DNA of 64,000 bases, from NCBI RefSeq assembly GCF_000024105.1, contig NC_013171.1, forward strand, positions 1,298,501 through 1,362,500, written 5' to 3'. A model generated the notes under the pieces. It saw nothing but the letters and a program-made list of their open reading frames with translations. It was not told the DNA's origin and searched no databases. Below, piece after piece: positions 51,631 through 56,369 of this stretch (its first letter is position 1; each line of letters opens with the position of its first letter). Made by a program: the position numbers and the translations under genes. Origin of the DNA: Anaerococcus prevotii DSM 20548 (GTDB lineage: Bacteria; Bacillota; Clostridia; Tissierellales; Peptoniphilaceae).

Positions 51631-52500
51631 AGATGTCTCGACTTACGCTCGACATAAGGGTAAGGAGGGAAAGCTCGCTTTCCTAACCCTTCCCTTGCTT
51701 CGACCAACGTGGAGAAGCCTCTTGAGAAATAGTAAAAGTATAATTCTTTAAGGCTGAGCATTGTAGTATTTCACACAATAACCGCCATCTCGAGCTTGTC
51801 GAGAGATCTACAGTCTATAATGACATGTAGATATATAAGTTCAAGTTATCTATGTAAATACCTAAATAGAAAAATCACCGTACAAAAATGTCCCAAGGTT
51901 CTGTAGACCTCTCACGTAAAGTTCGAGGTGGAGAGGTAAACAAGGAAGGAAAACTCGCTTTTCCTACCCCTTCACTTACCTCGACCGAAGCGGAGAGGTC
52001 TCATGTGTTATATTAGAAGTGCAAATAATTAAAAACTTTGAAATATAGTAATTCAAACAATTATTGCCATCTCGAAGGAGGCACGACTGAGAGATCTACA
52101 GTCTATGATGACATGTAGATATATAAGTTCAAGTTATCTATGTAAATAAATCAATAACTAGATCTCCAACCAAACATGTCCCAAGGTTCTGTAGACCTCT
52201 CGTCGCTTCCTCGTGGAAGCTCTGTCGAGGTGGCGAAGTAAGGAAAATTTTTTTAAAAAATACAGATTATGGTACGAGATATCTCGACTTCGCTCGACAT
52301 AAGGGGAAAGAAAACAAAGTTTTTTCTCCTTTTCCCTTGTTTCGAAACAAGCCCGTCCGGCTAGTAGAGGACTGGAGAAACCTCATTAAAATTATTAGAA
52401 CGCCATTTGGCGTTCTTTTGCCCTTTGTTCCTAAGAAACAAAAGTCACTACACTATTTATCTTTCATACAAACAGTGGCCAAACATGAGGAATCCCTAAC
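51631..52500. repeat. Mosaic palindromic repeat cluster 6
   Basis: Leader (51631-51660); module D (51697-51718, GCTTC/GAAGC); module B (51785-51931, left arm CCATCTCGAGCTTGTCGAG, right arm GTTCGAGGTGG); D (51978-51999, ACCTC/GAGGT); a second B (52067-52233, same hybrid arms as cluster 3); leader (52275-52300); D (52340-52382, GTTTC/GAAAC with GTCCGGC insert); and module C (52385-52475). This is the longest run of consecutive modules in the window; no gene. Confidence 0.87.
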
Positions 52501-52541: not shown

Positions 52542-52760
52542 TTATCTAATATTAAATTCTTGAGTTTCCACATTTTCCAAGTAGGCTTTTACTTTCTTGC
52601 TTACCTTGCCGTCTTTGGTAGCGAGGGCTTCTGATGCTATGATCTCATCCATAGCTTGGTTTACTCCTGCATCATCGATTCCCTCTTTTGGGTTGTCTAT
52701 TGATATCATTCTTTTTGTTCCCTTGTCGTCTGCGAATTGTAGTTTTAGTCTTTTAGTCAT
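52542..52760 (-). CDS. DUF2922 family small protein
   Basis: 72 residues. KRLKLQFADDKGTKRMISIDNPKEGIDD and AMDEIIASEAL match DUF2922. It is 14 bp downstream of the DUF1659 gene; the two are almost always paired in Bacillota. Function unknown. A perfect AGGAGG precedes it. Confidence 0.85.
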   Translation of the reverse strand: MTKRLKLQFADDKGTKRMISIDNPKEGIDDAGVNQAMDEIIASEALATKDGKVSKKVKAYLENVETQEFNIR

Positions 52761-52774
52761 ATGCTAGTACCTCC

Positions 52775-52966
52775 TTATGCTAACTCTTTTGTTTCTATCT
52801 TGTAAGCCTTGTGCTCATTTGCATTAGTCAATCCCACATAGGCTTGGGCGAATTTCTTAAGTCCTTCGTCTGCTACTCCAGCTACTAGGCTTGAAAATGT
52901 CCTAGATAAGGACTTTGCCTTGCCAGTTATTTCTTCTACGATGTCATAAACAATTTTTAATTTCAT
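52775..52966 (-). CDS. DUF1659 family small protein
   Basis: 63 residues. The core SLSRTFSSLVAGVADEGLKKFAQAYVGLTN is the DUF1659 pattern. First gene of a pair with DUF2922, preceded within about 40 bp by the 36-bp promoter-like motif at 53003-53038. Function unknown. Confidence 0.85.
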   Translation of the reverse strand: MKLKIVYDIVEEITGKAKSLSRTFSSLVAGVADEGLKKFAQAYVGLTNANEHKAYKIETKELA

Positions 52967-53002
52967 ATTTACTCCTTTATTTTTCTTATTTTGTGGGCCC
53001 TA

Positions 53003-53038
53003 CACTTATATATAGAATTTTTCGTCAAATCTTCCCGA
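53003..53038 (-). promoter_or_regulatory. Candidate promoter of the divergent sigma factor, copy 1
   Basis: Minus strand: TCGGGAAGATT, 10 variable bases, TTCTATATATAAGTG. The same boxes with the same spacing occur at 54066-54101. It would start transcription about 30 bp before the DUF1659 ATG. Confidence 0.65.
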
Positions 53039-53056
53039 CTTTTTTAATAATTTTTT

Positions 53057-53743
53057 CTAAATATCTATCCAAGTATTGTCCTCGCTGTCTTTGTAGGCGA
53101 CATATCTTCTAAGACCACTATCTTTTCCTATATAAGATAGCCAATAGTATCCTTCATTTTCTATCAGATAATCATAATATATCTTATCTCCAGGACAATA
53201 GTGGGTTATGATATCACTATTTGTCGAGGGTCTCTCTCTAACATTAGTTATAGCATGGACTAGGGCACATCCCTTCTTCCACACTCCCCTACTTGGAGAA
53301 ATTCTCCCGATAGGTCTAAAGTACCTCTCCTCGGATGATCTCCTACAGTTTAGATAATATCCTATAAAGGAAGCCTCATCATTTATGGAGACCCCATTGT
53401 TGGTGTAATTACAATGAATTATGGATCCCTTCCTTAGAAAAATCCCCGTATGGCCATAGGCTCCGGCGGAATGGCCTTCGATTCCCCTTATGAATATGTC
53501 TCCCCTTCTTACATCTCTATAATCATAAATCTCCCTAAAGACTCTTCCCTTTAGCTTATATAGAGATTCAGTATTGCCAATCCTCGTCTCCTTTGGGAGA
53601 AATCCCCCAGCTATCAAAGCATAGTAGACAAAGGACGAACAGTCCAAGGCCTCTGGCCCCAGCCTTTGGGGATAGGCCATAGAGTAGGTCACCTTGTGAT
53701 GCTTGGATAAGGCGAAGGCAATCATTCTATCAACACTTGTCAT
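53057..53743 (-). CDS. Phage-type NlpC/P60-like peptidoglycan amidohydrolase with SH3-like tail
   Basis: 228 residues. EALDCSSFVYYAL gives the catalytic Cys, and YGHTGIFL the catalytic His; RRGDIFIRG lies between, as in the bacteriophage amidase_5/NlpC-P60 fold. The C-terminal part (about 165-228; ITNVRERPSTNSDIITHYCPGDKIYYD) is a bacterial SH3-like cell-wall-binding domain. There is no signal peptide, so release would need a holin or lysis. It sits 22 bp downstream of the YvrJ-like peptide, a holin-like arrangement. Confidence 0.87.
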   Translation of the reverse strand: MTSVDRMIAFALSKHHKVTYSMAYPQRLGPEALDCSSFVYYALIAGGFLPKETRIGNTESLYKLKGRVFREIYDYRDVRRGDIFIRGIEGHSAGAYGHTGIFLRKGSIIHCNYTNNGVSINDEASFIGYYLNCRRSSEERYFRPIGRISPSRGVWKKGCALVHAITNVRERPSTNSDIITHYCPGDKIYYDYLIENEGYYWLSYIGKDSGLRRYVAYKDSEDNTWIDI

Positions 53744-53764
53744 AAATCCTCCTTTTACCTGGCC

Positions 53765-53896
53765 CTAGGCCAGGCTCTTTTTAATTTCATTAGTATCGAT
53801 CAATATCCTGTCTATCTTCCCATTGATTTGGAAGATTAAAATAAGACAAATGGCCACAGGAAAGCCTAGTTCACTAATAATCTTAATGATGTCCAT
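53765..53896 (-). CDS. YvrJ-family small membrane peptide
   Basis: 43 residues, MDIIKIISELGFPVAICLIL at the start: one membrane segment (about 9-24) followed by a charged amphipathic tail (GKIDRILIDTNEIKKSLA). The G-F-P near the start and overall plan match B. subtilis YvrJ and resemble BhlA/UviB holin-like peptides. The stop overlaps a CCTGGCCctaGGCCAGG palindrome. The RBS is weak: the leader ends in AATAAGGT before ATG. Too short for routine gene calls. Confidence 0.72.
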   Translation of the reverse strand: MDIIKIISELGFPVAICLILIFQINGKIDRILIDTNEIKKSLA

Positions 53897-54060
53897 ACCT
53901 TATTCGGCTTAGGATGCTCTGATGATTATGCTATGGAAAATCCTTCCATAATCAAAAGACACAAGTCCTTTTCTTCTAGTCTCATAAGTCCAAGGATATG
54001 AGAGAAGACAGAAAGTGCGCCACTCCTTTCTTTTAAATTTTTTGCCTAAAGGCTAAACCT
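53897..54060 (-). ncRNA. Structured leader RNA of the YvrJ-amidase operon
   Basis: Gene-free gap between the promoter motif and YvrJ-like ATG. On the minus strand consecutive hairpins are seen: GCCTTTAGGC (about 54044-54053); GAAAG/CTTTC (54011-54030); CTTCTCTCAT/ATGAG-act-AGAAG (53973-54007); AAAAGGAC/GTCTTTT (53954-53972); and TGATTATGGAA/TTCCATAgCATAATCA (53923-53954). Such dense pairing in about 130 nt suggests a selected RNA: riboswitch-like leader, thermosensor or processed sRNA. A frame without start codon (…MRLEEKDLCLLIMEGFSIA) runs through it. Confidence 0.6.
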
Positions 54061-54065
54061 CCTTT

Positions 54066-54101
54066 CACATATATATAGAAAAATAAGCCCAATCTTCCCG
54101 A
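54066..54101 (-). promoter_or_regulatory. Candidate promoter of the divergent sigma factor, copy 2
   Basis: Minus strand: TCGGGAAGATT, 10 bases, TTCTATATATATGTG, the same as copy 1 in 25 of the 26 box positions. It points into the structured leader and the YvrJ-amidase genes. Confidence 0.65.
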
Positions 54102-54257
54102 TTAGGCTTTCAGACTTTTATTGTCTATTTTTATTTCATAAATGGCTTTTAGACAGATTAAGACCAAATAAGAGCACTTTATCCAATTAAACTTTTCTTT
54201 CCAAATAGTCTATTATGTAGGTGTCGACACAAAGAGAGCTCTCGGAAAGGAAATATT

Positions 54258-54773
54258 ATGAAAATAACTTTGGACAATTCCGAGAAGATACTAGCAGCCT
54301 ACAAGCCGCTAATACTAAAGACAGTCAAACAATTTGGAGCCTTCGAAGAAGAAGAATCCATAGACGAAGCAAGAATGATCCTGATTGATGCCATAGGCAC
54401 ATATGATGATACAAAGGGAACCTTCGGCACCTATGCCAAAAACCTCCTCCGCTACCACTTCCTAGACAAGGCCAAGCTACCAAAAGCTAGATCAATCTAC
54501 GAAGAAGATGAGGAGAAAAATTCAATTATAGACCTCCTCGAAGCAGAGGAAGATACAGAAGAAATAATAATGGCAGAAGAAAGGAAAAAGGAAATCTTAG
54601 CAAACTTAGGAAAAATAAACAAGAAAAACTCCCAAATCCTAAAACTAAAATTCTACCAAGACCTAACAAACAAAGAAATAGGCCAAATAATGAACATCTC
54701 CACCAAAACAGTCTTCAACAGAATAAGCATGGGGCTAAAAGAAATGAGGGAAATAATGGTGGGAGAAATATAA
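54258..54773 (+). CDS. RNA polymerase sigma-70-family factor (SigO/UviA-like small sigma)
   Basis: 171 residues. Region 2 is in about 30-75 (SIDEARMILIDAIGTYDDTKGTFGTYAKNLL) and region 4 in about 105-165 with helix-turn-helix LTNKEIGQIMNISTKTVFNRIS. It lacks sigma-1.1 and region 3. Preceded by GGAAAGGAAATATT. It is divergent from the YvrJ/amidase and DUF1659/DUF2922 genes, whose upstream regions share a specific motif, so these are its likely targets. In B. subtilis YvrJ is next to the SigO/RsoA genes, a comparable association. Confidence 0.85.
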   Translation: MKITLDNSEKILAAYKPLILKTVKQFGAFEEEESIDEARMILIDAIGTYDDTKGTFGTYAKNLLRYHFLDKAKLPKARSIYEEDEEKNSIIDLLEAEEDTEEIIMAEERKKEILANLGKINKKNSQILKLKFYQDLTNKEIGQIMNISTKTVFNRISMGLKEMREIMVGEI

Positions 54774-54802: not shown

Positions 54803-55775
54803 AAGAGATATCTCGACTACGCTCGACGGTAGTTTTCGACCTCAGTGGTAAGCCTGTCCGGCTCATGGAGGACTTCATGCTTATTGATTTAGAACGAAAT
54901 TCATCGTTCTTTTATCCTTTGTTATTTCCTTAACAAAAGATACTGCACTATTTTGCTTTGCAAAACAGTGGCCCATGACGAGAGCTTCCTCGATTAAGGT
55001 CTGTAATCAATTCACTAACGTTCATTGTGACCAGACCCATTAGACATAGGGGTAATAATAGAAAGTTATCTTTCTAAAATAATTAGATCGCCATTCGGCG
55101 TTCTTTTGCCCTTTGTTCCTACGAAACAAAGGGCACTACACTATTTGTCTTTCAGACAAACAGTGGCCCAACAGGGGGGCAACCTTGCTTCGAAACAAGC
55201 CCGTCCGGCTAATAGAGGACTGGAGAAGCCTCAAGCAATAAACTATATCATGAAAAATAGTTCATACCCAGAAACTAAACTTAAACTACAATTACTGCCA
55301 TCTCGACAGAGCGAATGGAATGAGCGACGAGAGATCTACAGTATATGATGACACGTAGATAATAAAGACATTTGTATCTACTAACTAAATTGAGATGTCT
55401 CGACTTAGCTCGATATAAGGGGAAGGAAATCACTGCTTTCCATCTATTTCCCTTGTTTCGACCGAAGTGGAGAAACCTCACGCGTAATAGTAAAATTATA
55501 ATTATTTTGAATATTATAATTAAATCAAAATTTCCATTAGTGCCATCTCGAATGCATGTGAGAGATCTACAGTCTATGATGACATGTAAATATAAAAATT
55601 AAAGTTATCTAAATGAGATGCCTCGACTACGCTCGGCATAAGGTTAAGGTGGGAAAGCTTGCTTTCCTACTATTTTCCCTTACCTCGACCGAAGTGGAGA
55701 GGTCTCAGGTGTTATAGTAAAAGTGCAAATAAATACAAACCTAGAATTATAGCAATTCACACATTCACACCATCT
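54803..55775. repeat. Mosaic palindromic repeat cluster 7
   Basis: Between the sigma gene and the ComK-like gene. Leader plus module A (54803-55052) which is interrupted by a diverged module C (about 54888-54975; ATTTTGC/GCAAAAC and GAACG/CGTTC hairpins). A second module C (55078-55180), module D (55187-55229, GCTTC/GAAGC), left-only B (55298-55365), leader (55392-55418), D (55455-55476, GTTTC/GAAAC), left-only B (55543-55600), leader (55615-55640) and D (55682-55703, ACCTC/GAGGT). Nesting of C within A shows modular shuffling. Confidence 0.87.
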
Positions 55776-55886: not shown

Positions 55887-56369
55887 ATGAAAAGAGAAAT
55901 CTTGGCCATTCTGCCTGAACCTATGGAAAGGGTGGGGATAGTCTCTCGAATCTACTACATTGATACTATCGAGATTGACAAGAGAACCCCCACCCACTTC
56001 CTCAAAAACTCCTACGACAGGAAGGGAAAGAGTAAGAAGCTCGTTGATAAGAAAATCAAAGCCAAAACCCAAATCAAGAGAAACTACCCCTACGTCATCG
56101 ACAAGGACCACGTCTTCTTCGCCTTCAAGATCCGTGAGAGCAAATACGACGACCAACAGAGGGGCTTCGTCAACGTCAAATACGTAGACAAAATCCAAGG
56201 CTCAACCATAATCCTAACTACAGGAGAAGAAATCTCAAGCCTAAACACAGAAAAGACTCTCCTCTCCAACAGAAAAAACGCCCAACTCCTCTACTACATG
56301 AGCCTAGTAGAAACCATGGCCGATAACTTCATAGCTATACAATATGTGCGTGAGAATTTGATGGACTAG
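55887..56369 (+). CDS. ComK-family competence transcription factor-like protein
   Basis: 160 residues. The order of features follows ComK: an ILPEP start, SRIYYIDTIEIDKRTPTHFLK, NSYDRKGKSKKLV, an interior VIDKDHVFFAFKIRES...RGFVNVKYVDKI, then TIILTTGEEI and a helical tail. ComK binds AAAA-N5-TTTT boxes to activate DNA-uptake genes. Identity looks low, so function is unproven. AAAGGAGGCTG precedes the ATG; a terminator follows. The sigma-factor cluster is its neighbour beyond repeats. Confidence 0.7.
   Translation: MKREILAILPEPMERVGIVSRIYYIDTIEIDKRTPTHFLKNSYDRKGKSKKLVDKKIKAKTQIKRNYPYVIDKDHVFFAFKIRESKYDDQQRGFVNVKYVDKIQGSTIILTTGEEISSLNTEKTLLSNRKNAQLLYYMSLVETMADNFIAIQYVRENLMD

Follow-up and report, generated by a model that had tools for sequence, protein, structure and literature searches.

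Close to a divergent gene for a small sigma factor, the genome of Anaerococcus prevotii DSM 20548 carries two 36-bp sites on the minus strand, which raises the question of whether this factor reads them as promoters and what the genes behind them do. An initial annotation of the window (the whole stretch of 64,000 nucleotides that was analysed) had placed these sites before a DUF1659-DUF2922 gene pair and a leader-YvrJ-amidase group, with the sigma gene starting at 54258. Pattern searches reproduced the coordinates, strand and N10 spacing of both sites exactly, since TCGGGAAGATT-N10-TTCTATATATA[A/T]GTG was matched with zero mismatches at 53003-53038 and 54066-54101 of the minus strand. The DUF1659-DUF2922, YvrJ-amidase and divergent sigma genes were likewise recovered as open reading frames with family matches. 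The features of the locus are as follows.

53003..53038, minus strand: predicted promoter 1, before DUF1659-DUF2922 (-35 core GGGAAG, 53036-53031; -10 core CTATATA, 53015-53009); orthologous site in 30/30 genomes of the genus
54066..54101, minus strand: predicted promoter 2, before the YvrJ-amidase operon (-35 core GGGAAG, 54099-54094; -10 core CTATATA, 54078-54072); orthologous site in 22/23 genomes with YvrJ
54258..54773, plus strand: sigma-70-family (ECF-like) factor of 171 aa that consists of regions 2 and 4 (72.8 bits with TIGR02937, whose cut-off is 42.9); codons of D70 at 54465-54467 and of F153 at 54714-54716
52775..52966, minus strand: DUF1659 small protein of 63 aa, a relative of S. 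aureus SroA (Pfam PF07872, 8.8e-9)
52542..52760, minus strand: DUF2922 small protein of 72 aa (Pfam PF11148, 1.7e-19)
53765..53896, minus strand: YvrJ-family membrane peptide of 43 aa, holin-like (Pfam PF12841, 1.3e-6)
53057..53743, minus strand: peptidoglycan amidase/endolysin of 228 aa, Amidase_5 plus SH3_5 (PF05382, 1.4e-39)
55887..56369, plus strand: ComK-like protein, downstream of the sigma gene (Pfam ComK, 0.011; conserved neighbourhood)

The two sites were the only ones found in the window at up to three mismatches, and 100 shuffles of the window gave 0 matches. A third copy, which had not been seen by eye, is absent from the window and from the whole 1,998,633-base genome (two contigs; up to three mismatches). 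This genome-wide count comes from pattern scans of the ~2.0 Mb; the profile scan covered the window, where the two sites scored 36.6 and 37.5 bits with a genus profile and the runner-up position 8.8. The 11 and 15 bases shared by the sites are exact in the window, but across the genus the information sits in GGGA[A/C] and TCTATATATA, held at a nearly fixed distance.

Regarding the proteins, Sigma70_r4 (residues 117-165) and r4_2 matched the sigma factor above cut-off and region 2 weakly, and regions 1 and 3 are missing. The product of 54258-54773 thus holds regions 2 and 4 in a single protein, the criterion of an alternative (ECF-like) sigma factor. The predicted structures of the DUF1659 and DUF2922 proteins both follow a beta-beta-alpha-beta order (pLDDT 89 and 93, respectively), and no sequence relatives of either were found in the PDB. 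Since the profiles of the two families are weakly alike (hhalign probability 10) and neither model had a significant structural match in the PDB (best E 0.3), a shared ancestry is not claimed. YvrJ scored 28.2 bits, slightly below the 29.5 of Pfam. The ComK-like protein reached 15.9 bits against a Pfam ComK gathering score of 22.3, and 13 out of 30 of its relatives matched Pfam ComK at E <=0.01 (best 2.6e-7); this gene is a conserved member of the module that the first reading had missed.

We then compared the upstream regions across Anaerococcus, in which DUF2922 was present in 30 out of 31 genomes and YvrJ in 23 out of 31. Each genome was scored with a profile trained without it and compared with shuffles. 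A site scoring above every shuffle was found upstream of DUF1659-DUF2922 in 30/30 genomes and upstream of YvrJ-amidase in 22/23, at similar distances from the genes and with near-fixed spacing, so that the enrichment whose absence had been named as a refutation is present. The remaining YvrJ genome (G021) carries a variant in which both promoters have a one-base-shorter spacer and GTTATATA replaces TTCTATATA. In many genomes the two operons lie far from one another and from the sigma gene, and therefore neighbourhood alone cannot explain the match. A one-mismatch scan of the genus gave 50 sites, compared with 19 for the reversed control pattern, and an exact-motif scan of 84,980 species returned 15 stretches, at least 9 of them from Anaerococcus. 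Chance and local duplication as origins of the two sites were rejected on the basis of the shuffles, the genome scan and this footprint.

The promoters also varied together. In the 23 genomes with both sites, the promoter pair of the same genome agreed at 21.6 out of 26 box positions, compared with 18.6 for permuted pairs (0/20000), and this likeness persisted after near-identical genomes had been removed. The same permutation test on the 23 genomes gave no significant within-genome likeness of the spacer. Two unrelated promoters that change in step point to one shared reader. In the DUF1659 promoters, base 7, in the -35 element (GGGA[A/C]), was A when sigma residue 153 was A or F and C when it was R or T (27/27 genomes), while base 24, in the -10 element ([C/T]TATA), was C with D70 and T with N70 (18 + 9 of 27 genomes). 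Residue 153 is part of the region 4.2 helix-turn-helix, in its recognition helix, and would align with the -35-contacting R171 of E. coli SigE; residue 70 is found where region 2 ends. Each was the top-ranked sigma column for its base and, among columns with up to six residue types, the sole one fixing that base in all genomes. When bases were changed at random along the sigma tree, with the number of changes kept equal, the agreement was as good in 4/6000 cases for residue 153 and 2/6000 for residue 70, and parsimony placed three D-to-N and three C-to-T changes at the same places. The YvrJ promoters obeyed the same rule except in G017, G024 and G044 (base 7) and in G010 and G023 (base 24). 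Finally, the best sigma match reached at least 77 bits in 15/15 genomes that have DUF2922 and did not exceed 59 bits in 9/9 genomes lacking it, a supportive observation rather than a sampled statistic, given that the 24 genomes were chosen by hand.

Altogether, the footprint, the promoter pairing and the residue-to-base covariation strongly support the original proposal, and we are highly confident that the neighbouring sigma factor reads the two boxes as -35 and -10 elements. Throughout the genus, factor and promoters have changed in step, letter by letter. It is extremely improbable that the boxes instead bind another regulator, for instance the ComK-like protein, or form a promoter for the housekeeping sigma-A, with the sigma factor as a bystander, because the conserved ComK-like gene beside it and the TATA-rich -10 box would fit this view but the motif is non-palindromic, keeps a fixed -35/-10 spacing, has a -35 without likeness to TTGACA, and varies at its -35 and its -10 base along with one residue each of sigma region 4.2 and region 2, no other column doing so.

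According to the model in which the sigma factor is the reader, this 171-aa protein would direct RNA polymerase to two CGGGA[A/C]NWT-N11-TTCTATATATA promoters, residue 153 reading the fifth -35 base and residue 70 the first -10 base. Promoter 1 would produce the DUF1659-DUF2922 transcript, and promoter 2 a transcript encoding YvrJ, a one-helix holin-like peptide, together with the phage-type amidase. Nothing indicates that the sigma factor drives its own gene: in none of the genomes inspected does the motif stand before that gene, so its activation would come from elsewhere. A candidate partner for this input is the linked ComK-like gene, which has no motif upstream of it. The description of the regulon as self-contained holds for A. 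prevotii, whose sites are confined to the two operons, but not for a few relatives, G041 among them, which carry extra ones close to unrelated genes.

This relative, Marseille-Q5996 (Anaerococcus sp.), has a small genome with nine one-mismatch sites, the extra ones including sites before a D12 DNA methylase (MethyltransfD12) with a DUF6997-family partner, a type I restriction-modification hsdM operon and a peptidase S51 gene (L118, L120, L123). In four Anaerococcus genomes, HTH_36 (replication-initiator-like) genes stand directly behind sites (L131, L132, L133, L134), which suggests a further target family. Some of the extra sites in relatives may be real regulon members and some may be due to chance.

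The leaders behind the promoters showed features of their own, two of which are present in A. prevotii.

54009..54032, minus strand: inverted repeat AAGAAAGGAGTGGCGCACTTTCTG in the leader that separates promoter 2 from YvrJ; 11 genomes conserve the element
52992..53004, minus strand: imperfect palindrome TGTAGGGCCCACA with one mismatch, where the DUF1659 transcript is expected to begin

No obvious gene was found at the place of the "leader" gene annotated before YvrJ in A. prevotii. At the loci compared (the window, L063-L085, L124 and L127), the leader of the YvrJ operon takes two largely alternative forms. One holds a micro-ORF of 16-25 codons with an acidic product (e.g. MTKILIYKEEKDDDKTEEKDSKDSE); the other holds the inverted repeat [A/T]AGAAAGGAG...CTTTCT[T/A], whose outer pair is compensated and which encloses GGAG, a Shine-Dalgarno-like sequence. 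The DUF1659 leaders of relatives carry perfect or compensated palindromes at the expected start (TGTAGGGCCTACA, TGTAAGCTTACA, TGTAAGGCAACTTACA and GTAGGGCCACTAC), and the DUF1659-leader palindrome may serve as an operator or form a hairpin at the 5′ end. No known RNA family matched the leaders above its gathering score, and two sub-threshold matches look like chance. In addition, intergenic repeat families (35-123 nt, 60-96% alike; e.g. TTAGAACGCCATTTGGCGTTCTTTTGCC) lie on both sides of the module, at 51640-52500 and 54880-55760.

Beyond the genus, DUF2922 was found in 86 out of 100 genomes of the order. The 30 order-level DUF2922 loci that we inspected contained DUF1659 in all cases, YvrJ in 25, the sigma factor in 19 and the ComK-like gene in 19, the typical arrangement being sigma-DUF1659-DUF2922-YvrJ-ComK, while other genera of the family showed a patchier module. 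Immediately ahead of DUF1659, around half of the 30 loci presented [A/G]GTAA-N14-TTCTATA or a sequence close to it. The -35 core differs where the recognition helix differs, GTAA being found with SYRTVVNT at the order level and GGGA with S[TP]KTV[AF]NR in the genus. The module is thus old and occurs across the order with a related promoter. At positions 729-2467 of L028 (G027), from another family, a ComK-like gene, a sigma gene and an overlapping Amidase_2-type ORF (recognised by eye) stand in a row, and a different type of hydrolase may have joined the module in this lineage. One order-level genome (G038:C1) has 11 sigma matches, three of them near three DUF2922 copies (e.g. 2174111, 2180555, 2188350), a local expansion of the module.

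The amidase matched the phage endolysin family phrog_998 (7.7e-30), and its N-terminal 130 aa share 48-50% identity with lysins of Lactococcus phages, which are themselves neighbours of holins. No signal peptide was evident when its N-terminus was read by eye, and the protein is classed by its sequence as an endolysin-type hydrolase lacking one. The A. prevotii YvrJ matched the holin family phrog_4898 weakly (0.033) and its relatives did so at 6e-5 to 2e-7; YvrJ adjoined the amidase in 23/23 YvrJ-bearing genomes. A role of the pair in controlled lysis or wall remodelling, as first suggested, is plausible. YvrJ and the amidase would probably bring a cytoplasmic hydrolase to the wall, causing lysis, release of DNA or protein, or local wall opening, outcomes that the data do not separate. 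The sigma factor is probably subject to feedback from the DUF1659-DUF2922 pair, as with SroA/SroB in S. aureus. We tentatively propose, as one possible reading, an order-wide chromosomal sigma switch (sigma factor, DUF1659-DUF2922 feedback pair, holin-like YvrJ and ComK-like partner) that would drive programmed lysis or release in Anaerococcus, would carry a natural two-letter promoter code (153/-35 and 70/-10) and would include the staphylococcal SigS-SroAB system as one branch.

A rather unlikely alternative is that the regulon mainly tunes stress or metabolism, as proposed for SigS-SroAB, and that YvrJ and the amidase serve ordinary wall turnover. DUF1659 is related to SroA; in S. aureus, SigS directly activates sroAB, SroA and SroB feed back on sigS, and SroA acts on sigS mRNA and metabolism (PMC13192611). 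Many order-level relatives also show no such amidase beside the module, but in Anaerococcus YvrJ always adjoins the endolysin-like amidase and its relatives match a phage holin family. That the module is a competence-linked switch, in which the sigma and ComK-like factors act together and the amidase and YvrJ release DNA from sibling cells, is doubtful. The linkage of the ComK-like gene to the sigma gene across the order, the presence of comEC in 5/5 genomes tested and the extra G041 sites before DNA methylase and type I restriction-modification genes would agree with it, whereas the ComK match in A. prevotii is weak and the motif was absent upstream of comEC and of the best T2SSE-family (ComGA-like) ATPase; a classical late-competence regulon is therefore not supported. 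It is very improbable that the pair is a decaying prophage lysis cassette that captured a promoter and has no present role, since the identity of the catalytic domain to Lactococcus phage lysins would fit this but the pair is intact with its promoter in 22-23/23 genomes, at different chromosomal places, and the stretch that was read showed no recognisable genes for phage structural proteins next to it.

The locus has a broader interest. Most small sigma factors of anaerobic Firmicutes have no known promoter, and here sequence by itself is enough to name the regulon, its promoter and two residues of specificity, giving a recognition code testable by single swaps. Four widespread families of unknown or unclear role (DUF1659, DUF2922, YvrJ and ComK-like) gain a regulatory context, and a chromosomal sigma factor is linked to a pair of holin-endolysin type that lies in no recognised prophage.

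Several known systems resemble parts of this arrangement. In the holin-endolysin cassettes of Lactococcus and Streptococcus phages, a small membrane peptide likewise neighbours an endolysin (Amidase_5 plus SH3) that lacks a signal peptide, whereas the Anaerococcus pair is chromosomal, predicted to be under a dedicated sigma factor and without recognised phage neighbours. Group V clostridial sigma factors with holins (UviA/UviB, and TcdR/TcdE for comparison) also combine a small sigma factor and a holin-like gene in one neighbourhood, but the Anaerococcus proteins did not match those families, YvrJ was not called BhlA/UviB by Pfam and the module contains no bacteriocin or toxin gene. In B. subtilis, the alternative sigma activity SigO-RsoA transcribes yvrJ (PMC8103513), a target shared with the module described here; in that system sigma4 and sigma2 are on separate proteins, while the product of 54258-54773 holds both regions, and the OxdC/YvrL targets were not seen here.

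The closest characterised system, missed by the first reading, is SigS-SroAB of S. aureus. In both cases a small sigma factor activates an operon of two small proteins, one of them DUF1659-related, although in Anaerococcus this is predicted from the upstream sites, which precede the two-gene DUF1659 operon in 30/30 genomes. The DUF1659 protein of A. prevotii scored 18 bits (E 0.002) with the NCBIfam SroA model (NF049869), by which SroA likeness was judged and whose equivalog cut-off is 80 bits; the model matched 22 out of 56 DUF1659 relatives (best 5.8e-7), all far below 80 bits. By this model the protein is a DUF1659 homologue, distantly related to SroA, and not an SroA ortholog. Anaerococcus adds the YvrJ-amidase target operon and the ComK-like neighbour, and its sigma gene has no motif before it, whereas SigS is reported to transcribe its own locus (PMC2585143). 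In S. aureus, too, a gene is divergent from the sigma gene (PMC2585143). The Anaerococcus findings suggest that SigS-SroAB, the stress circuit of staphylococci, is part of a module of greater age.
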